Of a stretch of DNA of 43,707 bases, positions 2,603 to 12,592 are shown one piece after another. Position numbers and translations under genes: made by a program. Every line of letters starts with the position of its first letter. Positions within the stretch are counted from its first letter, which is position 1. The notes below the pieces were generated by a model, which was given only the letters and a program-made list of their open reading frames with translations, searched no databases and had not been told where the DNA came from. The DNA comes from Gemmatimonadota bacterium (GTDB lineage: Bacteria > Gemmatimonadota > Gemmatimonadetes > Longimicrobiales > Gaopeijiaceae). The stretch is from NCBI GenBank assembly GCA_009841475.1, contig VXLT01000104.1, forward strand, positions 1 through 43,707. The letters run 5' to 3'.

Positions 2603-2912
2603 GTCGCCCCCTCCGGCGGGCCCGGCCTCCGAAGCAGTCTCCGCCGTCCTCCCACCGGGATGGCGCCCGCCATGCCCGGAAACAACTGCTTGGACACCTG
2701 CCCCGCCTCTCGTATCTTCCCACCGAGACCCGGGTGCAGGACCCGGCCTCACTGCCGCCGGACCACGTGCTGGACACTGCGAAATAGCAAGATGGGAGAA
2801 GGGAACGATGACGTTGATCGAGCGCGCGCGGGTCGGTGCCGCCGCCGCCGAGAAGCTCCTGCCCCTGCTCGGGCGGCTCACCGACCAGGCGCAGCCCCTG
2901 CAATACGGCCGG
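2603..2912 (+). pseudogene. Rpn-family relic, copy 2 (severely deleted)
   Basis: This stretch aligns by eye at the nucleotide level with copy 1 in three blocks. The 5' leader and start codon region lie at about 2603-2685, the LGHLPRL... block at about 2686-2780, and the TLIERAR plus AAAEKLLPLLGRLTD blocks at about 2795-2890. Everything between the blocks is deleted, and the frames are broken by stops, for example after CWTLRNSK. The copy ends just before the DNA methyltransferase start at 2920. It carries no intact protein. It is direct in orientation to copy 1, so the pair brackets 956-2600. Confidence 0.65.
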
Positions 2913-2919
2913 TGACCGG

Positions 2920-3804
2920 ATGAGTGTCCCGTCTTCCGGCGGGCGTATCATTCTTTCGGACAACCTCCCGGTTCTTCGGGAAATGAATGCCGGGAGCATC
3001 GGGCTGATCTACGTCGATCCCCCGTTCAACACCGGCAGGATCCAGAGTCGTACCCGCATCCGGGTCGAGCGCGACGAGGACGGGGACCGCACGGGCTTCC
3101 AGGGAAGTCGCTACCGCACTGAAGTCGTCGGGCGGAGCGGCTACGATGACCGCCATGACGACTACATCGGCTTCCTGGAGCCCCGCCTCAGGGAGGCCTA
3201 CCGGATTTTGAAGCCGACCGGTTCCTTTTTCCTCCACATCGACTACCGTGAAGCCCACTACTGCAAGGTCCTTCTGGACGAGATCTTCGGCCGCGCGTCG
3301 TTCATGAACGAGATCATCTGGGCCTACGACTACGGTGCCCGCTCGAAGCGGAAGTGGCCCGCCAAGCACGACACGATCTTCTGGTACGCGAAGGACCCCG
3401 CCGCGTACACCTTCAACTTCGACGAGATGGACCGGATTCCCTACATGGCTCCCGGGCTGGTCGGCAAGGAGAAGGCCGCCCGGGGCAAGACTCCCACCGA
3501 TGTGTGGTGGCACACCATCGTGAGCCCGACCGGGCGAGAGAAGACCGGATACCCCACCCAGAAGCCCCTGGGAATCCTGGAGCGCATCGTCAAGGTCCAC
3601 TCCAGGCCCGGCGACACCGTATTGGACTTCTTCGCCGGGAGCGGAACGGCGGGCGAGGCGGCGGCACGCCACGGCAGGGGCTACATACTGGTGGACTCGA
3701 ATCCCGAGGCGGTGCGCGTCATGGCCGAACGCCTGGCCGACTGCAATGCGGAGACCATCGGGTTTGACCGGCCACGCCCCGCACCCGCTCGGCAGAATCC
3801 ATGA
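2920..3804 (+). CDS. Orphan DNA adenine/cytosine-N methyltransferase (beta class)
   Basis: The product is 294 residues from the ATG at 2920. Motif IV DPPF (residues 33-36) comes before motif I FAGSGT (about 239-243), the order of beta-class N6-adenine or N4-cytosine methyltransferases (PF01555). Between them lie LKPTGSFFLHID, a small target-recognition segment and the YPTQKP element typical of motif X. The protein transfers a methyl group from SAM to an exocyclic amino group in DNA; the recognition sequence cannot be read from the protein. No restriction endonuclease gene adjoins it, so it looks like an orphan or the survivor of a lost restriction-modification system. It starts 30 bases after Rpn relic 2 and is convergent with the cas operon. 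Confidence 0.88.
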   Translation: MSVPSSGGRIILSDNLPVLREMNAGSIGLIYVDPPFNTGRIQSRTRIRVERDEDGDRTGFQGSRYRTEVVGRSGYDDRHDDYIGFLEPRLREAYRILKPTGSFFLHIDYREAHYCKVLLDEIFGRASFMNEIIWAYDYGARSKRKWPAKHDTIFWYAKDPAAYTFNFDEMDRIPYMAPGLVGKEKAARGKTPTDVWWHTIVSPTGREKTGYPTQKPLGILERIVKVHSRPGDTVLDFFAGSGTAGEAAARHGRGYILVDSNPEAVRVMAERLADCNAETIGFDRPRPAPARQNP

Positions 3805-3835
3805 TCGCGAGGTTCGAGGCGGGAGAGCCCCGGCC

Positions 3836-3943
3836 GCCGAACGAAGGCCGGAGCGTTCCCACCCCGGCGACAAGTGAGACGGCAGCCTGCGCGAGGCTGT
3901 TGATGTCCGCTCAACGAAGGCCGGGCCAGGAGCCCGGCGACAC
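3836..3943 (-). CRISPR. Candidate two-repeat CRISPR remnant
   Basis: Two related units lie head to tail, 3909-3943 and 3836-3873, separated by a unique 35-base segment (3874-3908). Read on the minus strand, both begin TGTCGCCGGG and carry CCGGCCTTCGTT near the 3' end. The unit nearer the cas genes forms a perfect 7-bp stem (GCCGGGC/GCCCGGC). The period is about 73 bases, right for repeats and spacers of 35-37 each, and the 3' ending TTCGTTGAGC resembles the ATTGAA(G/C)-type ends of many CRISPR repeats. It begins 12 bases past the last cas gene and in the same orientation. Against it: the two units differ in the loop and in length by 3 bases, and there are only two. A duplicated hairpin or terminator is the alternative. 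Confidence 0.35.
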
Positions 3944-3954
3944 CAGCCACTGAG

Positions 3955-4872
3955 TCAGAGCCGCTCCGAGCCGAACCCCCTTGTCGGATCCGCCGTCGCT
4001 CTCGGCCGGTACCGGAGGGTGCGCCAGGCGGAGTGAATGCCAAGGAGCGCCCAGTTGCTTCGGTTGGGGCTCCACAGGTCGAGGAGGGCATCGATCGCGG
4101 CCGCGTCGAGGGATGCGCGCCATGCCGGCCAGCTGAAGCACAGCTCCCTGCGGTCGTTCTCTCGACTCCAGCCGCGCTGGAGCGCGGAAGATTGTACGGC
4201 CCCGCGCAACCGCGCATCCGTGCCCGTCCCGCGCAACGGGAACAGCGCCAGTCCGAAGAACGCCAGAACCTCGACCACCGGCTCGACCCGCTTGACCGTC
4301 TCGTCGGCCTGCGACGCCAGCCTCGTGATGTCGAAGCCGAGTCCGCTTCCCTGCACTCTGCGCGCGGTGCCCTGCAGCGACCGGTCCAGTCGTCGCGGCG
4401 ACGGGCCGGGCCAGCCGGCGGATCTACGGACCTGCCGATGGACTCTGAGCAGCCGGTCATGCAGCCACCGGATCGACCCCGGGCCCGCCGGGTCGAACGG
4501 GGCGTGCGCGACCTGTCCGTCCGCGGCGACGTGGAGGTCGGTCATGGTCGAGGACAGAGTCCACGACGCGGGGTGGGCGCGGGCCACCCGCACCCGCGCG
4601 GAGAAGGATTCGACGCTCACCTTGCGCTCCATGCGCGGCGTCTGCGCCCACTCTTCCGCTACCGGCAACTCGCCGAGCGCGGCGCGCGTGGGCCAGGCGG
4701 CCGCCAGCAGCTCCACCGGGTCGCCGTCCGTCGACGACAGAGCAGCCCGCGGAGTGCGGTCCTCCGTCCAGCCGAGGCGAATACCCGGGCACAACACCGT
4801 CGCGCCGATGCCGGCCAGCCACCCGTTCACCCAGGAACCCGGCAGGCCCCGGCAGATCACCTGCCCTCTCAT
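3955..4872 (-). CDS. Type I-G CRISPR protein, Cas8-position/Cas3-extension-like
   Basis: This 305-residue protein is the last gene of the cas operon; its ATG overlaps the cas3 stop by 4 bases (ATGA). Its N-terminus (VNGWLAGIGATVLCPGIRL) resembles, from memory, the small proteins encoded right after cas3 in type I-G (former I-U) loci, described as Csb3 or Cas3-extension proteins. It ends with a Trp/Arg-rich segment (LLGIHSAWRTLRYRP). It is far shorter than Csx17, the roughly 700-residue proposed large subunit of these systems. I infer a role in the effector complex or with Cas3; no catalytic motif is visible. Position and coupling make the cas assignment strong, the exact family less so. Confidence 0.65.
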   Translation of the reverse strand: MRGQVICRGLPGSWVNGWLAGIGATVLCPGIRLGWTEDRTPRAALSSTDGDPVELLAAAWPTRAALGELPVAEEWAQTPRMERKVSVESFSARVRVARAHPASWTLSSTMTDLHVAADGQVAHAPFDPAGPGSIRWLHDRLLRVHRQVRRSAGWPGPSPRRLDRSLQGTARRVQGSGLGFDITRLASQADETVKRVEPVVEVLAFFGLALFPLRGTGTDARLRGAVQSSALQRGWSRENDRRELCFSWPAWRASLDAAAIDALLDLWSPNRSNWALLGIHSAWRTLRYRPRATADPTRGFGSERL

Positions 4873-7259
4873 CGATTGCCCGTCCCGGACACGCGCGTTT
4901 CATCGGACACGCCGCGGTTCGCCTGTCTTACGATCGTTTCCAGCAACGCCAGGCCCCATGGACCGAACGTGTCGTTGAGGCGCCGAAACCGAGCGGGCTG
5001 CCCCCAATCGGTTTCCGAAAGGTTGGCGGGGCATCGAACGGTCGTCCCCCGCACCGTTGCCGACACTTCCTCGGTCGTGTCGTCCGGCACCGGCGTCACC
5101 AACGGCCGCCCGCTTCCGTGATGACTGGCGACGAGGTGGACGAGAAGGTCGGCCAGGTCCGAGTCCGGGCGGTCCGGACCCATCGACAGCCACTTCTGCA
5201 ACAGGCGGGCCGACAGCTGTTCGTGCCTCCCTCCCCGGGGCCATCCCGCCGGCCGACGGCGGAAACGCCGGTCGGCCTTGCCAAGATCGTGCCACTGCCC
5301 GGCGAGATCGACGGCCCGGATCAGGGCAGGCGCCAACCCGAGACGCTCGGCGATCAGGCGGGCCCGGGCCCCGACGGCACGGCCGTGGAGTTCGAGGTCG
5401 GCGGCCGGGACGGGCGCGGTGCCGGGGGTCGGGACGGACATGTCGGCCACGGGGGCGGTTGAGTCCGGGTTCCAGCCGAAGTCGTCCAGCAATCCGCGGT
5501 CCGATGGGAGCACCAGCGTATCGTCCGGACGAATTTCGCGTGCCGTGATGACCTCGACCGTGAGCCCGTCCGGGCCGAGGCGCCGCAGATCGTCGTGCGC
5601 GATCAGGGCCCGCCGCACGTGGCGAATCGGACAGCGAACGGCTTCACCATCGCGGGGTCGCGGCCGGATCCTGCGCCCGTGGTCCGGGACGTTCGCACGC
5701 CAGAACAGGCAGACCGAAAGTTCCGCATCGGGGATGCCCGCGAAGTACGGAGTGACCGGCGCAGCGTCCCGGGGCGGCGTTGTCGTCTTCGTCCACTCCC
5801 ACAGGAGGCCGTTCATGACTTCCGGGACCCGGCCGGGCTCGTCGTCCGGCTCGCCGAGCGCCTCCGCCAGGTGTCGCGGGGACACCGACAACGGACCCCC
5901 GGCCCGTTTTACGGCCTTCTGGAGCCGCCTCAGCACCGCTTCCGGTTCTCCACCGCCCGGAGGGCGCCCACCGGCTCGCCCGGACGCGTGTACATACACC
6001 GCACGGGAGCTGGAAGAGCGTCCGAGCCGGTTCAGGCGGCCGAGGCGTTGCGTCAACGCACGGACTCCGCACGCCTCCGACACCAGGAATTGGGCATCGA
6101 GGTCGGCGTCGGCCTCCAGGGCCGGCGTGGCCACCACGACCAGATGGCGGTCGCGGCGCAACGGCGGGCCGGGAGACGCCGGCATCCCGTGGACCGGATC
6201 GAGAATGCGCGCCCGGATCCGTTCCGCCTCCCGTTCGCGTGTCCGTCCGGCGGCGAGAAGGATGTCCGCGTCGTCCGCGAGCGGCGACGACGAGAGCCGG
6301 CCGAACACGGCCCTCGCAACGGTCAGCGTGTTGGCGACTACGAGGCAGCAGGCCGGATCATGCGCCCCGGCCAGGAGCGACTTCACCCACTTCGCGATCG
6401 CCTTGTCGGCGTCACCGCGCTCGACCCTGGCGTCGATCCACTTTGGCGCGTCGAGACGCTCCCGCACGATCGGGTTTGCACGATCTTCGGCGTCGAGCCC
6501 GAACCGGTCGAATGCCGAGGCGCTCCCCGTTGCGGTCAGCGAAACCACCTGCGGCAGCGAGCGGGCGCCGCCGAGAATCCGCCGGGCCTTCCGGGTACAG
6601 TCTGCAAGATCCCGCACCAGCCGAAGCAGGTTCCTGGCGAATGGACTCTCGTCAATCAGCACCAGGCTGTCGGTGCCCGCGTGCGCCGCATCGACCGGGT
6701 ACATGAAACGATTGCTTCCCTGGCCCCGGAACAGCAGGCGCGAGCCGAACAGCCGCACCGTGGAGAGCATGATGGCGGGCCTGGACGGGTCGGTGGGCAC
6801 GCGCGCCCCGACTCCCCCGCGATGCCGGACCACCTCCAGCGGATCTGCCTCGGCATTCGATCCCAATGAGCGCAGCCGGTCCGCAACGGCCCGGACGATC
6901 GCCGCGGCATCACCGGTGATCCCGGCGGCCGCGGGATTGCGAAGCGCCCCGCTGACCGCCCGGGCACGTTCCCCGGTCGAGTCGGCCAGCACGGGACGAT
7001 GCGCAAGCCACCAGATTCGGGTCGGCGCCGACCGGGCCGATGGCGGGCGGTCCGCCTGCGACGCCAGCCACCAGACCGCGATGTCGAGGCATGCGGTCTT
7101 GCCGAGCCCGGTCGGGATCTCGACCTCGATCGGCCACGCCCCGGTTTCCGCGACCTGTTTCGCCAGGCGCGTCTGCCAGGGCAGTGGCAGCCGGTCGTGG
7201 ATGGCTTCGTAGAACGCCGCGAATCCCGGCATTCGGCCGAGCCGCCCTTCAGACGGCAT
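4869..7259 (-). CDS. cas3: Type I-G Cas3 helicase-nuclease with C-terminal HD domain
   Basis: The product is 796 residues. The superfamily 2 helicase part has Walker A PTGLGKT (49-55), a Walker B position reading DESP (203-206) where DEAH-type sequences are usual, motif III TATGS (242-246) and motif VI QRLGRLNRLG (404-413). The HD nuclease domain is at the C-terminus: H625, HD 657-658 in WHDLGK, H679 and HH 713-714, the layout known for type I-G rather than the N-terminal HD of most Cas3 proteins. It would unwind and degrade target DNA recruited by Cascade. The ATG at 7259 has GGAAG upstream and overlaps csb2 by 11 bases. It is not obviously damaged. Confidence 0.9.
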   Translation of the reverse strand: MPSEGRLGRMPGFAAFYEAIHDRLPLPWQTRLAKQVAETGAWPIEVEIPTGLGKTACLDIAVWWLASQADRPPSARSAPTRIWWLAHRPVLADSTGERARAVSGALRNPAAAGITGDAAAIVRAVADRLRSLGSNAEADPLEVVRHRGGVGARVPTDPSRPAIMLSTVRLFGSRLLFRGQGSNRFMYPVDAAHAGTDSLVLIDESPFARNLLRLVRDLADCTRKARRILGGARSLPQVVSLTATGSASAFDRFGLDAEDRANPIVRERLDAPKWIDARVERGDADKAIAKWVKSLLAGAHDPACCLVVANTLTVARAVFGRLSSSPLADDADILLAAGRTREREAERIRARILDPVHGMPASPGPPLRRDRHLVVVATPALEADADLDAQFLVSEACGVRALTQRLGRLNRLGRSSSSRAVYVHASGRAGGRPPGGGEPEAVLRRLQKAVKRAGGPLSVSPRHLAEALGEPDDEPGRVPEVMNGLLWEWTKTTTPPRDAAPVTPYFAGIPDAELSVCLFWRANVPDHGRRIRPRPRDGEAVRCPIRHVRRALIAHDDLRRLGPDGLTVEVITAREIRPDDTLVLPSDRGLLDDFGWNPDSTAPVADMSVPTPGTAPVPAADLELHGRAVGARARLIAERLGLAPALIRAVDLAGQWHDLGKADRRFRRRPAGWPRGGRHEQLSARLLQKWLSMGPDRPDSDLADLLVHLVASHHGSGRPLVTPVPDDTTEEVSATVRGTTVRCPANLSETDWGQPARFRRLNDTFGPWGLALLETIVRQANRGVSDETRVSGTGNR

Positions 7260-8670
7260 TCACTTCCGCATCGCCGGCAACGTCCACGCAGAGTCCGAGG
7301 CCGCGTTGCCGGGCGGAGCCCAGAACCACGGGTCCGGTCACGGGAACATCGAACCAGACCATGAGGTGGGAATACGGCCGCCCGCCCCGCCCGGGCCGGT
7401 TCACTTCGACCGGCGCCAGGTCCACACCCCCGGGAACGAAGGGAGCTCGCGCGGACCGGAACGCGCCGGGGGCGGGGAGTCCGGCGTGACGGCACCACCG
7501 GGCAACCTCCTGCAGGTCGACCGGAACCCTCCGCTCGTGGACTACCGGGAACGCGGAGGTCCAGCAGCGTGCGGTTCGGGTCCATCGCTGCGGCGTCGCG
7601 GCACCGGTGCCGGTCTCATCGGCGGGGAGCACGGAAACGTCGATTCCGTGTCCGTGAAGCCGTCTTACGGAAAACGCAGCCTCTCGAATGCGGGCCCTTT
7701 CAGGCGCATCGCTCCCCGGTGGCAGCCAGAGCGCCAGTCCGTGGATGTGCCCGTGCGACCGGGAATCCCCGACATCGGGCAGTGCCAGATAGCGCGCGAG
7801 ATCGAAGCCCTTGCGCCGGAACCCGTGTCCGTGCAGGACGGGCGGCGGCTCGCCGTGAATCGCCTGGAATCGGCTGAGTACGGCGTCCTTGAACACGGCC
7901 GTAACTCTGGACACGCGGCGCCCGGCCACGGCCCGGCCAAGACGCAGCCAGGCCACGACACCCCCGCGATCAACGGCCGGCCGGCCCGCCGGCGAACGGT
8001 AGCCGACCCGGTGGCGCAGGGCCGGGAACTGGGATCGGCCGACACCGGGCCCGTGCGTGCTCCAGGCATCGAACATCTGGTCCAGCAGCTCCAGGTCACC
8101 TTCCCGGGGAACACTGATGGCCAGATCACCGGCGGGATCGGGCTGGTAGACGCCCGCGGGGGAGGTTTCCACATCCGGCATGCTGTCGCTGATTCTGACC
8201 CGCACCGGCGTGTCCGCCGCACCCAGGTACCCGACCCGGGCCGCACGCCGCCGGAGGGCGTCGAATACTGCGGGCGGCACCTCGGTATCCCAGCGATAGA
8301 CGACGTGTGGATGTCGCGGCGTGACCCTGTAGCCCGGACGGATTCTCGTTCCCGTGCGGCCGACGTACTCCATGTGGGCGGACTTGCGGGGGCTCCTGGG
8401 GGAGACGACCACATAGCGCGGCTCCAGGGGCTGGTGGCGGGGATCGGCGTCCGCATGAATGACCGGGGGCGGCAGGCGCACGAACCAGTGGAGTTCGGAC
8501 CCGTCGGTCACCCGGCAGCGCCGGCCCGTGCCGTCCGCGGCCACCAGGGCCGCGAACAGCCTTGATGGAGATGGCGGCCACTCGCCCCTGCTCAGTCCGC
8601 CGGTGTTCGCCGTGCCGTCCGGATCTCCGCGAAAGGTCCCGTGCAGGAGTTCGACGGAGACCACCAGCAT
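7249..8670 (-). CDS. csb2: Type I-G CRISPR protein Csb2 (Cas5-Cas6 fusion)
   Basis: The product is 473 residues. It opens MLVVSVELLHGTF with GEWPPSPSRLFAALVAA, the typical start of Csb2 (GSU0054 family), regarded as a fusion of a Cas5-like and a Cas6-like RAMP. Near the C-terminus it has a glycine-rich loop, GPVVLGSARQRGLGL, as in Cas6 RNA-binding folds, preceded by PYSHLMVWF. It probably binds and cleaves the CRISPR transcript and caps the crRNA. The open frame extends upstream to 8868, but that part overlaps csb1. The ATG at 8670 shares one base with the csb1 stop (TGATG), so I chose it. The histidines at HGHIHGL and PYSHL are candidate catalytic residues. Confidence 0.88.
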   Translation of the reverse strand: MLVVSVELLHGTFRGDPDGTANTGGLSRGEWPPSPSRLFAALVAADGTGRRCRVTDGSELHWFVRLPPPVIHADADPRHQPLEPRYVVVSPRSPRKSAHMEYVGRTGTRIRPGYRVTPRHPHVVYRWDTEVPPAVFDALRRRAARVGYLGAADTPVRVRISDSMPDVETSPAGVYQPDPAGDLAISVPREGDLELLDQMFDAWSTHGPGVGRSQFPALRHRVGYRSPAGRPAVDRGGVVAWLRLGRAVAGRRVSRVTAVFKDAVLSRFQAIHGEPPPVLHGHGFRRKGFDLARYLALPDVGDSRSHGHIHGLALWLPPGSDAPERARIREAAFSVRRLHGHGIDVSVLPADETGTGAATPQRWTRTARCWTSAFPVVHERRVPVDLQEVARWCRHAGLPAPGAFRSARAPFVPGGVDLAPVEVNRPGRGGRPYSHLMVWFDVPVTGPVVLGSARQRGLGLCVDVAGDAEVNAV

Positions 8671-9866
8671 CAGTCGGCTGGCTGCGGCCAGGTGGAGATT
8701 ATCGCGTTGCGCAGATTGTCCCTCGGCGTGAGGCGGAGCGCGGGCTGATCCCAGCCGTCGAGCGGCACCCCCTCCGACCTGGCTCGCGCGAGGGCCGCAC
8801 CCACCAGTTCGCCGGTCGCCCGCGGCCCTCCAAGCGTCAGGGCCCTGTCTCCGCCGGCTCCGAGCCACACCGTGCTGGTTTCCATCGGTCTGAGCGCGGC
8901 ACCGGAACGCAGGGCGAATCCCCGCCCGAATGCAAGCACATGCGCGTGCAGGCCGAGCGCCACCAGCAGCGCCCGGGCCGCCGCGTCACGATCCGGGCCA
9001 TGCGCCTCGCCGAGACTGACGCGCCTCAACTGCGCGAACGACACCGTCGCACGCTGTGTCACCCGCGAGAACGATACGGCCGCGGCCGCCGCCTCGTCGC
9101 CCATGAAGGGCACCTGGCCGTGCCCGATTTCCGACAGCTTGTCCCTCCTTCCACCCTCGACGGGGGCGCGGCCCATTTCCCACTCGGAGCGGTCGTCGGG
9201 GTTCGAGGTCAGCGTCTCTCCGGTGTTCAGGTTCATCGGGTCGCCCTTCAGGCCGAGAACCCTGGTTTCCACGGACGCGGGGCGCCATCCGACGATCTCC
9301 GATACCCACGCGCGCGCGTGCTTCGTGTTGTGCCGCTTCTTGCCCAGGTGCGACTGCCAGAAGCCGTACAGCAGTGCCTGCGGGAACCAGGCCATCAATG
9401 GTCCACAGCGGCTCGGCGTGGCTCCGAAGATCGACTTGCCCAGCTCGGTCTTGATGAAATCGCGTCCGCTCAACCGCGCGTCACGCAGGTACGCGTCCGC
9501 ATTCCGGTGGGGGAATTCCAGGCTGGAAATCTGGCGGGGCAAGTGCGCCGGCAGATTCGTCAGGTCGGAAAGATCCAGTACCATTTCGGGCACCCGGGTA
9601 GTGTCCCTGTTCCGGCGCAGGGCCTCCTCGAGCCGGTTCGCCTGCGAAGGAACGCTGTCGATGACGATGACTTTCGTGGGCTCCGAATCGGCAGGCGACG
9701 CCCACCGCTGGTCCATCTGATAGACTCCGCCTTCATAGACCGCCGGCTTGACCAGCCCGTCCGCTCCGGTCAGCGACTCGAGGGTGGAGTCGATCCGGAT
9801 CCCGTCCTCGAAAGAATCGTCCGCGCAACCCTCGACAAGAGATTCCAGGTCGATCTTCTGTGCCAC
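8670..9866 (-). CDS. csb1: Type I-G CRISPR protein Csb1 (Cas7 backbone)
   Basis: The product is 398 residues and begins at a GTG with GAGGGAAG about 6 bases upstream. The beginning (DSFEDGIRIDSTLESL), YEGGVYQMDQRW, and the SVPSQANRLEEALRR segment are hallmarks of the GSU0053/Csb1 family, which acts as Cas7, the repeated backbone subunit along the crRNA. A central ATPSRCGPLMAWF and a late FALRSGAALRP match the family's RNA-contacting regions as I remember them. It is the first gene of the operon csb1-csb2-cas3-small gene; the upstream region 9867-10225 should hold its promoter. Confidence 0.9.
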   Translation of the reverse strand: MAQKIDLESLVEGCADDSFEDGIRIDSTLESLTGADGLVKPAVYEGGVYQMDQRWASPADSEPTKVIVIDSVPSQANRLEEALRRNRDTTRVPEMVLDLSDLTNLPAHLPRQISSLEFPHRNADAYLRDARLSGRDFIKTELGKSIFGATPSRCGPLMAWFPQALLYGFWQSHLGKKRHNTKHARAWVSEIVGWRPASVETRVLGLKGDPMNLNTGETLTSNPDDRSEWEMGRAPVEGGRRDKLSEIGHGQVPFMGDEAAAAAVSFSRVTQRATVSFAQLRRVSLGEAHGPDRDAAARALLVALGLHAHVLAFGRGFALRSGAALRPMETSTVWLGAGGDRALTLGGPRATGELVGAALARARSEGVPLDGWDQPALRLTPRDNLRNAIISTWPQPAD

Positions 9867-10225
9867 CAGGCGCTTCCCTCACGGCCGGACTGTCTACATT
9901 ATGGACGGAACCGGGGACCGCGAGTACAATCGCCGGACGGCCTCCCGAAATCCCGGGCGCGATCATCGAATCGCGATGATTTTTCACATGAGATTATTGA
10001 GCGACCGATGATCGATTGGTCATACTAGTTTCGTGATATTGGACGTGTCAAGAGATGGCAGGCACGTCGAGTTCCCGGAAGGTTGCGGCGATCGATCCTC
10101 TGGCGCTTGTCGCGTGATATTTTGGATATATCTTCGTGACAGACGAGCGATAGAGCGCGGGCCTGCCGCGTGGGAGCATGCTCCGCGTGGGGGTGCGCCG
10201 GGTTCACAAACAGGGAGAGCACACC
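9867..10225. promoter_or_regulatory. Divergent intergenic region between the cas operon and the hybrid kinase
   Basis: This 359-base stretch has no supported gene and is locally AT-rich (about 9965-10045 and 10110-10135) within a GC-rich window. It holds a direct repeat CGTGATATT at 10032-10040 and 10113-10121, and an inverted repeat GATAT/ATATC at 10116-10120 and 10128-10132. A perfect 12-base palindrome, GGAGCATGCTCC, lies at 10173-10184. It should contain divergent promoters for csb1 and the kinase. The AT-rich GATATATC stretch is a candidate -10 region for the plus strand, but I cannot fix promoter elements with confidence. Confidence 0.45.
9962..9984 (+). terminator. Possible intrinsic terminator-like hairpin
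   Basis: A perfect 7-bp stem (ATCATCG/CGATGAT) with a 5-base loop is followed by a run of T on the plus strand. The form is that of a weak Rho-independent terminator. No plus-strand gene ends just before it, so it might instead be an operator within the cas promoter region. Confidence 0.25.
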
Positions 10226-12592
10226 GTGACGAACGATTCTGCCGAACAGCGGCGAGAGATGGAGGCACTTCAGGAGCGCGTATCCAGACTGAGCGCTGCC
10301 GTGCTGCGGGTCAGCGCCAGCCTCGACCTCGACGTCGTGCTGCAGGAGGTGGTCGACAGCGCGCGCGTCCTTACCGGTGCCCGTTTCGGCATACTGGTGG
10401 GCGTGGATGCCGCCGGGCGCACAGAGGAGTTCGTCACCTCCGGCTTTACGACCGCCGAGAAGGAGGAAATGGCTGCCTGGACGGACGGTCCGCGGTTCTT
10501 CGAGCATCTCCGGAGCCTCGCCACGCCGGTTCAGCTGTCCGACCTGCCCACCTATGCCCGGGCGCTGGGCTTCTCGTCCGATCTCATGCGGTCGAAGACG
10601 TTTCAGGCGGTGCCGCTGCGACACCGCGACATCAACGTCGGCAACTTCTTTCTGGCCGAGAAGGAGGGCGGTCGCGACTTCACGAGCGACGACGAGGAGG
10701 TGCTCACGCTGTTCGCGGCCCAGGCGGCGACCGCGATCGCGAACGCGCGCGCACACCGCGAGGAACGGAGGGCCAGGGCCGACCTGGAGACCCTGATTGA
10801 AACCTCGCCTGTTGGCGTCGTCGTCTTTGACGGGCAATCCGGCGAGCCCGTGTCGTTCAACAAGGAGGCGCGCCGGATCGTCGACGGTCTGAGAATACCG
10901 GGACGCACCACGGCGCAACTGCTGGAATTGGTCACCTGCGGCCGGGCCGACGGGCGGGATGTTGCCCTGGCGGAGTTTCCGCTGGCGGCGCTGCTGAGCG
11001 AGGGCGAGACGGTGCGTGCGGAGGAGATGACGCTCTCGGTTCCCGACGGCCGGAGCGTGACCACCCTGGTCAACTCAACGCCGATTCTGGCGGACGACGG
11101 CTCGGTTATGTCGGTCGTGGCCACGCTTCAGGACCTGAGGCCGCTCGAGGAACTTGAGCGGATGCGGGCCGAGTTCCTCGGAATCGTGAGCCACGAACTG
11201 CGAACGCCGCTGATCTCGATCAAGGGCTCCACGGCAACCGTTCTGGGCGCTTCGCCGGCACCGGACCCGGCCGAAATGCTGCAATTCTTTCGGGTCATCG
11301 ACGATCAGGCCGACCGCATGCGCGGCCTGATCGGCGAACTGCTCGACCACGGACGGATCGTGACGGGCACGCTGTCGGTATCGCCCGAGCCCGTGACCGT
11401 CGCCTCCCTGGTGGACCAGGCTCGTGGCACGTTTGTGAGCGGCACGGGCGCACACATCGTCAACATCGACCTGCCCGAGGACCTTCCGCGGGTGCTGGCC
11501 GACCGCGCTCGCATTGTCCAGGTCCTGGGCAACCTTCTGTCCAACGCGGCAAAGTATTCTCCGGAGACGTCTCCCATCCAGATCGACGCGGTGTTGGACC
11601 GGACGCACGTGATGGTCTCGGTGACCGACAAGGGCCGCGGCGTGCCGCCGGATCGACTTCCCGGTCTATTCCGCAAGTACGCCCCATCGGCCGGTGGCGA
11701 CCGGGAACGTGGGGCCGGGGGGGCCGGCCTGGGCTTGACGATCTGCAAGGGCCTGGTCGAGGCTCACGGAGGGCGAATCTGGGCCGAGAGCGGCGGTGTG
11801 GGACAGGGCACGCGATTCAGCTTTACGGTTCCGGTGGCCGAGGAGCCGGGAACGGCCGCTGCGGGCCAGGCAGGGGCCGACCGGGGCACCGCTCCCGAGA
11901 GGCGCGAGCAGACGCGTATCCTGGTGGTGGACGACGACCCGCAGGCGCTCCGCTACGTACGCGACGCGATCACCGAGGCGGGCTACGCTCCGATCGTGAC
12001 CGGGGATCCGGAGGAGGTGGCAAACCTCGTCAGGCAGCACAAGCCCGAACTGGTCCTGCTGGACCTGGTCCTCCCCGGGACCGATGGCATCGCGCTGATG
12101 GAGCGGGTTCCCGAGCTGACCGATCTGCCGGTCATCTTCATCTCCGCCTACGGCAGGGACGAAACGATCGTCCGGGCGCTGGACGCGGGCGCGGCGGACT
12201 ACATCGTCAAGCCGTTCTCGCCTTCGGAGCTTTCAGCGAGAGTGCGGGCCGCGCTCCGCCGTGTTGCCGGTCCGCAGCCGTTCGTGCTTGGGGACCTGAC
12301 CATCCGCTACGACCAGCGGCGCGTCGCAATCAAGGACCGGGTCGTGCAGCTCACCCCGACCGAGTATGAGATGCTCCGCGTGCTCTCGGTCAACGCCGGA
12401 CGGGTGCTGACGCACGAGTCGCTGCTGCGCCAGGCGTGGCGCGGTCGGGATCGGGGCGAACCGGACCCCAAGCTCGTTCGCGCCGTCGCGAAGCGGCTGC
12501 GCCACAAGCTGGGAGACGACGCGGCCAACCCGGCCTACGTTCTAACCGAGCGCGGGGTCGGCTACTACATGCCCGCACCGCCAGCCCGGTGA
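10226..12592 (+). CDS. Soluble hybrid sensor kinase fused to OmpR-type response regulator
   Basis: The product is about 788 residues. Domains in order are GAF (about 20-180), PAS-like (about 185-300), HisKA with SHELRTP (His near 323), HATPase_c with GNLLSNAAKYSP (near 434) and the G2 box AGLGLTICKGL (near 499), receiver with phosphoacceptor Asp near 612 in LVLLDLVLPG, and an OmpR/PhoB winged helix (about 685-785, LTPTEYEMLR to ERGVGYYMP). It has no membrane segment, so it should sense a cytosolic cue, phosphorylate itself internally and bind DNA as one polypeptide. I chose GTG 10226 because AGGGAGAG lies about 7 bases upstream; an ATG at 10178 is in frame but poorly placed. It ends 8 bases from the convergent transporter gene. 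Confidence 0.9.
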   Translation: MTNDSAEQRREMEALQERVSRLSAAVLRVSASLDLDVVLQEVVDSARVLTGARFGILVGVDAAGRTEEFVTSGFTTAEKEEMAAWTDGPRFFEHLRSLATPVQLSDLPTYARALGFSSDLMRSKTFQAVPLRHRDINVGNFFLAEKEGGRDFTSDDEEVLTLFAAQAATAIANARAHREERRARADLETLIETSPVGVVVFDGQSGEPVSFNKEARRIVDGLRIPGRTTAQLLELVTCGRADGRDVALAEFPLAALLSEGETVRAEEMTLSVPDGRSVTTLVNSTPILADDGSVMSVVATLQDLRPLEELERMRAEFLGIVSHELRTPLISIKGSTATVLGASPAPDPAEMLQFFRVIDDQADRMRGLIGELLDHGRIVTGTLSVSPEPVTVASLVDQARGTFVSGTGAHIVNIDLPEDLPRVLADRARIVQVLGNLLSNAAKYSPETSPIQIDAVLDRTHVMVSVTDKGRGVPPDRLPGLFRKYAPSAGGDRERGAGGAGLGLTICKGLVEAHGGRIWAESGGVGQGTRFSFTVPVAEEPGTAAAGQAGADRGTAPERREQTRILVVDDDPQALRYVRDAITEAGYAPIVTGDPEEVANLVRQHKPELVLLDLVLPGTDGIALMERVPELTDLPVIFISAYGRDETIVRALDAGAADYIVKPFSPSELSARVRAALRRVAGPQPFVLGDLTIRYDQRRVAIKDRVVQLTPTEYEMLRVLSVNAGRVLTHESLLRQAWRGRDRGEPDPKLVRAVAKRLRHKLGDDAANPAYVLTERGVGYYMPAPPAR

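Follow-up and report, generated by a model that had tools for sequence, protein, structure and literature searches.

A former type I-G CRISPR-Cas system in Gemmatimonadota that may provide one fixed guide for a DNA-binding Cascade

The effector of type I-G CRISPR-Cas (formerly type I-U) has been studied in Thioalkalivibrio sulfidiphilus, in which Csb2 cuts 4 nt after the 7-bp stem of the repeat and leaves an 8-nt handle, and the PAM is TTN (PMC9638904). CreA, the guide of CreTA, is encoded by a two-repeat, one-spacer unit that sits beside cas genes and full arrays; it acts via Cascade without Cas3 and represses a toxin promoter by a partial match (PMC8501985, PMC9458426), for which positions 1-5 and 7-11 pair in addition to TTC (PMC8501985). 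CreR, a cas-autoregulating guide, is likewise single, crRNA-like and encoded with the cas operon; immune crRNAs accompany it, and its target is the cas promoter (PMC12737573).

The locus described herein lies in a stretch of 43,707 nt (the window; contig VXLT01000104.1 of GCA_009841475.1) from a Gemmatimonadota bacterium of the Gaopeijiaceae with a genome of 4.18 Mb (G000). The same operon adjoins the same histidine kinase gene in a sister genome (G011; locus L029, JAJDVT010000044.1), which represents a different species (orthologues about 85-90% identical in DNA). Searches of 98 related genomes with Csb2 and of 121 family genomes with csb3 identified the operon type in five further relatives. 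The array region is assembled in four (G008, G044, G252 and G330), and a contig end cuts the locus before the array in the fifth (G017), the last of the seven genomes known with this csb3. The features of the window are listed in Table 1. We favour, with moderate confidence, the reading that a deletion in a former type I-G immune system left one guide behind csb3, and that the operon at present supplies a probably binding-only Cascade with one fixed crRNA. Our confidence is not higher because the mini-array is known in two species only and no target was found.

Table 1. Features of the cas operon and the mini-array (positions in the window)
Feature	Position	Strand	Remarks
csb1 (Cas7g backbone)	8670..9866	-	TIGR02570, 69.7 bits, over cut-off
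csb2 (Cas5-Cas6 fusion, predicted crRNA processor)	7249..8670	-	TIGR02165, 177.6 bits, over cut-off; C-terminal His501 kept; start set at Met67 of the longest ORF
cas3g	4869..7259	-	Full reading frame but degraded; family match 481.8 bits, over cut-off
csb3	3955..4872	-	PADLOC Cas8g, 27 bits; NCBIfam 'Cas3-extension' NF049934, 52 bits (cut-off 65)
Putative operon promoter	10022..10051	-	TTGACA-18-TAGTAT, from alignment; TTGACG-18-TAGTAT in L029
Repeat 1	3908..3942	-	35 nt: TGTC, 7-bp hairpin GCCGGGC/GCCCGGC, CTTC, 8-nt handle GTTGAGCG (3915-3908)
Spacer (single guide) GACATCAACAGCCTCGCGCAGGCTGCCGTCTCACT	3873..3907	-	35 nt; 31/35 common to L029
Repeat 2 (terminal)	3835..3872	-	38 nt; hairpin and cut site intact, handle decayed (GTTCGGCG)
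Predicted mature crRNA	3843..3915	-	73 nt: GTTGAGCG handle, 35-nt guide, repeat 2 hairpin; from the Csb2 rule (PMC9638904)
Weak candidate target within csb3	4298..4335	-	PAM TTC at 4335-4333, partial protospacer at 4332-4298

An earlier note on this DNA had pointed to two related units after the last cas gene and in its orientation. We found there, on the minus strand behind csb3, a two-repeat, one-spacer CRISPR (the mini-array, 3942-3835) with the orientation of the cas operon. The 35-nt middle that the note proposed as a spacer is real; however, its positions (3836-3943 for the site, 3874-3908 for the middle) were all one base too high. The perfect 7-bp stem claimed for the first unit was also recovered, and the stem of repeat 2 (GCCGGGG/CTCCGGC) pairs with one G-U. 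The proposed period of 73 nt holds between the 3' ends of the two repeats, whereas 70 nt separate their 5' ends, because the loop of repeat 2 is 3 nt longer. The gap between the csb3 stop codon and repeat 1 is only 12 nt. The two-end pattern TGTCGCCGGGN{6,14}CCGGCCTTCGTT has two matches in the whole of G000, both at the mini-array, where about 4e-5 would be expected given the base composition, and the reversed control has none; the two-unit match is not due to chance. On the other side of the mini-array, an orphan DNA adenine/cytosine methyltransferase gene (2836-3804, plus strand; PADLOC MTase_II, E=2e-137) converges on it, and no restriction nuclease was recognised alongside. The gene at 1-955, for which neither Pfam nor NCBIfam gave a match, has a shortened second copy (377-854 and 2686-2889, plus strand; pieces 88-97% identical) just before the methyltransferase gene.

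The CRISPR reading of the earlier note is borne out by the relatives, the arrays of which (23-55 units) have the same stem, 4-nt linker and GTTGAGCG handle. In the four relatives with an array, the repeat family is TGTYGCCGG(N2)loop(N2)CCGGCCTTYGTTGAGCG, with spacers near 36 nt. A strict repeat pattern occurred 35 times in G008, 55 times in G044, 23 times in G252, twice in G330 (at a contig end) and once each in G000 and G011; 20 further genomes of the genus and G131 had none, nor had the reversed control. All matches in these 27 genomes belong to six genomes out of the seven known with this csb3. Across eight repeats, the 7-bp stem pairs in 100% of cases, and pairs 6 and 7 vary on both sides. 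The repeat stem in the G252 array (L141, contig C222, 1-1800) is GCCGGAG/CTCCGGC, identical to the stem of unit 2 in L029, a natural two-sided change in the family. The site has no match in Rfam. Two family-typical repeats thus surround a 35-nt spacer, as in a type I-G array, and by its anatomy repeat 1 has the 7-bp hairpin, the predicted cut site 4 nt downstream and the 8-nt handle of a type I-G repeat; the succession of stem, CTTC and GTTGAGCG fits the cutting rule of Csb2 exactly (PMC9638904).

Two strong hairpins at the 3' end of an operon may also be produced by duplication of a terminator or 3'-end stabiliser unrelated to CRISPR. We regard this explanation as highly improbable. There is no U-tract, no terminator-like site was called at the mini-array, and the parts outside the stem (TGTC, CTTC and GTTGAGCG) are those of the CRISPR repeat of relatives. 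Moreover, the 20 further genomes of the genus lack the pattern, and in none of the 27 genomes do these hairpins follow unrelated genes, the arrangement that the earlier note named as the sign of a terminator duplication. The repeat homology already contradicts this explanation; a secondary role as a 3' structure may exist.

The locus shares Csb1, Csb2, the 7-bp repeat hairpin, the CTTC linker, the 8-nt handle and the spacer length with type I-G, together with a putative large subunit (Csb3, Cas8g) and a Cas3g of altered motifs, and its operon is the csb1-csb2-cas3-csb3 variant also present in G008 and G044. Unlike canonical systems, it has no cas4, cas1, cas2 or leader, it has one spacer and degraded Cas3 motifs, and its guide is joined to the cas operon at the 3' end. 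It is type I-G CRISPR-Cas by ancestry and, by content, is no longer a complete system. In the relatives, cas4-cas1-cas2, a leader (ending in GATTAGYA in three) and the array come after csb3, whereas in G000 and G011 repeat 1 follows csb3 directly, with no leader. The adaptation genes cas4-cas1-cas2 of a complete type I-G system are missing at this place, and no Cas1 was found anywhere in the whole genomes of G000 and G011. Since the window continues 3.8 kb beyond the mini-array, the lack of these parts behind csb3 is not an effect of an assembly end.

We infer that the mini-array is the leader-distal end of an ancestral type I-G array, i.e., its oldest repeat-spacer-repeat. The adaptation genes cas4-cas1-cas2, the leader and the bulk of the array would have been deleted before at least two species separated, so that the terminal repeat-spacer-repeat came to lie 12 nt after csb3 and to depend on the cas promoter. 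The simplest account of the mini-array is a single deletion that extended from the end of csb3 into the array. The terminal repeat of the G044 array likewise has no 3' end, and the decay of the repeat 2 handle is common to G000 and G011. A CRISPR-associated transposon was considered and rejected; the nine neighbouring proteins included no transposition genes (Pfam, NCBIfam). No mobile csb1 copies were found in viral contigs.

The sequence at 10051-10022 is a probable promoter of the cas operon, as judged from its alignment with L029. Upstream of it on the minus strand, the block TGTCAYGAAGATATAYCCAAAATRTCACGCGACAA (about 10050-10150) is conserved within an otherwise diverged region and is operator-like in shape, with TGTC...GACA ends. 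Divergent from the operon lies a gene (10178-12592, plus strand; 8656-6281, minus strand, in L029) for a protein with GAF, PAS, histidine kinase, receiver and OmpR/PhoB DNA-binding parts in one polypeptide. It is absent beside the canonical operons of G008 and G044. This protein could regulate the cas operon.

Between G000 and G011, dN/dS is 0.127 for csb1, 0.194 for csb2, 0.211 for csb3 and 0.368 for cas3, and none of the four genes contains a stop codon, against 9-16 per gene expected under neutrality. Losses of residues that are invariant in canonical relatives are no higher in csb1, csb2 and csb3 than in the relatives themselves. By these measures, Csb1, Csb2 and Csb3 remain under purifying selection. 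A structure model of csb3 was too poor (pLDDT 36) and was discarded. In Cas3, 24-25% of the otherwise invariant positions are lost, compared with 9-14% for the controls. Losses that the two species share are the DEAH box (DESP in G000, DDSP in L029), TQ of motif V, now TP, and two deleted segments, one of about 100 residues ahead of the HD domain and one of about 27 residues within it. HDLGK, motif V and motif VI fall at known catalytic positions in an alignment with solved Cas3 proteins. The L029 protein additionally has no HD histidine (LDLGK) and has lost one SHHG histidine, and no Cas3 HD domain was detected in the G011 genome. In G000, Cas3 retains HDLGK and SHHG and may still be an active nuclease, which counts against the favoured reading. 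The dN/dS of cas3, which is still below 1, also counts against it. Since Csb1, Csb2 and Csb3 are selected and Cas3 has decayed, we consider a binding complex to be selected and cutting apparently not.

The mini-array differs at 13 of its 108 positions between G000 and G011, whereas 24.4% of 4-fold sites in the four genes differ (binomial P=0.001; Fisher P=0.003), and the upstream non-coding region has diverged far more. Three changes lie in the loop of repeat 1, four in the spacer, none of which is within the first 14 nt, and six in unit 2, each of them either in its loop or at a stem position without loss of pairing. For the spacer by itself (4/35 changed), the signal is marginal (P=0.049); therefore, conservation of the guide between species is suggestive and not proven. 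As read from this alignment, the parts that were kept are those that one crRNA needs, namely, the handle of repeat 1, the guide seed and the hairpin of repeat 2, and the handle of repeat 2, which one crRNA does not need, is not canonical. The word vestigial, used in the earlier note, suits the reduced array and the decayed adaptation module and Cas3, but not the parts for one crRNA kept in two species or the Cascade genes under purifying selection.

The main rival to the preferred reading is a decaying remnant, i.e., a broken immune locus whose final repeat-spacer-repeat is preserved by inertia and whose guide no longer serves a purpose. The losses of adaptation genes, leader and array, the degraded Cas3, the decayed handle of repeat 2, the marginal conservation of the spacer and the lack of a target are all in keeping with this. 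However, csb1, csb2 and csb3 stayed under purifying selection and free of stop codons after losses common to both species, and every change in the repeats either lies in a loop or preserves pairing. We consider mere decay to be improbable, though a serious contender.

The spacer was searched against the host genome, plasmids and phages, as the earlier note had suggested, and no convincing target emerged. No protospacer was found in IMG/VR, phages or plasmids, collections that are thin on Gemmatimonadetes viruses, or at up to 3 mismatches in 394 genomes of the class, apart from the guides themselves. In IMG/VR, 48 contigs contain the first 14 nt plus GC and were rejected at 25/35 or fewer overall, and no contig matched a core pattern of 23 positions, 21 fixed and two free. 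The best phage matches (E=4) were dismissed, and a plasmid match to 25 nt of a Paracoccus TolC gene (E=6e-4) was taken as chance in GC-rich coding DNA. Self-targeting in G000 was not supported by 36 sites with up to 3 mismatches to the PAM and first 14 nt, against 26 for the reversed control, and the sites common to G000 and G011 lie in coding sequence of ordinary conservation. The best of those common to G011, TTC followed by GACATgAACAGCCgCcCGCA in the gene of a 390-aa protein (L154), fits a skip of position 6 and was set aside, since the chance that such a site arises by accident is estimated at about 5%. Folding of the spacer is uninformative, because 46% of 93 natural spacers form hairpins at least as strong.

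Within the operon, the best PAM and seed site is TTC followed by GACATCA, which occupies the same position of csb3 in the two species. In 2% and 0.6% of trials, respectively, a shuffled guide found a site that was equally good. Position 8 is mismatched in both species and position 9 in G000, and csb3 is conserved as a protein anyway. We treat this site as a lead of the kind that CreA would use. At the cas promoter, the best site with a PAM matched 6/10 seed positions (1-5 and 7-11) in the window and 5/10 in L029, and no match of the CreR kind was found.

Residual immunity, in which one fixed spacer acts against one old phage or plasmid through a weakened Cas3 or by binding alone, also needs to be weighed. 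By its anatomy the spacer would be an ordinary acquired spacer, and Cas3 of G000 keeps HDLGK and SHHG. However, escape by point mutation makes a single unchanging spacer a poor defence, the searches above returned no protospacer (with thin coverage of Gemmatimonadetes viruses), and some catalytic residues of Cas3 are lost in L029. We consider this explanation unlikely, and less probable than decay.

Under the preferred reading, the mRNA of the cas operon would carry one guide at its 3' end, and predicted Csb2 cuts, 4 nt beyond the hairpin in each repeat, would free a single crRNA that begins with GUUGAGCG-GACAUC. Csb1, Csb2 and Csb3 would form Cascade on this single crRNA and bind a target, blocking transcription or marking the site, without destroying DNA. 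The main argument for function is that G000 has no other copy of the repeat, and the Cascade under selection therefore has just one guide. The single fixed guide within the operon that the earlier note had envisaged corresponds to one spacer, the same in G011 at 31 of 35 positions; the guide RNA itself is predicted. Whether the type I-G complex now serves outside immunity, with no adaptation, a Cas3 not selected for cutting and one fixed guide kept through speciation for an RNA-guided DNA-binding regulator or silencer, is in our judgement evenly balanced.

By analogy, the mini-array appears to work most like the CreA and CreR guides, without their promoter match and accompanying immune array. 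As in those guides, two degenerate repeats surround one spacer-like sequence near cas genes, and, as in CreA, the 8-nt handle of the first repeat is more canonical than that of the second; a Cascade that would act without Cas3 is a further likeness. However, CreA and CreR co-exist with immune arrays, whereas G000 has a single copy of the repeat pattern (repeats of this family were searched), and the mini-array would be the only guide. It has neither a promoter match nor an identified toxin. Furthermore, the first repeat is the more diverged overall in CreA, and the second is in the mini-array. A partial literature search found no paper on a one-guide type I-G system without adaptation and with a decayed Cas3.

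If the preferred reading is true, a class 1 effector was kept for one fixed guide after the making of memory and, as judged by sequence, the destruction of targets were lost. It would be a natural counterpart of the engineered dCascade and would show how an immune system can become a regulator. The proposal is testable, since the guide is common to two related species and close relatives with the full system may serve as controls. The target of the guide would reveal the purpose for which these bacteria keep the complex.
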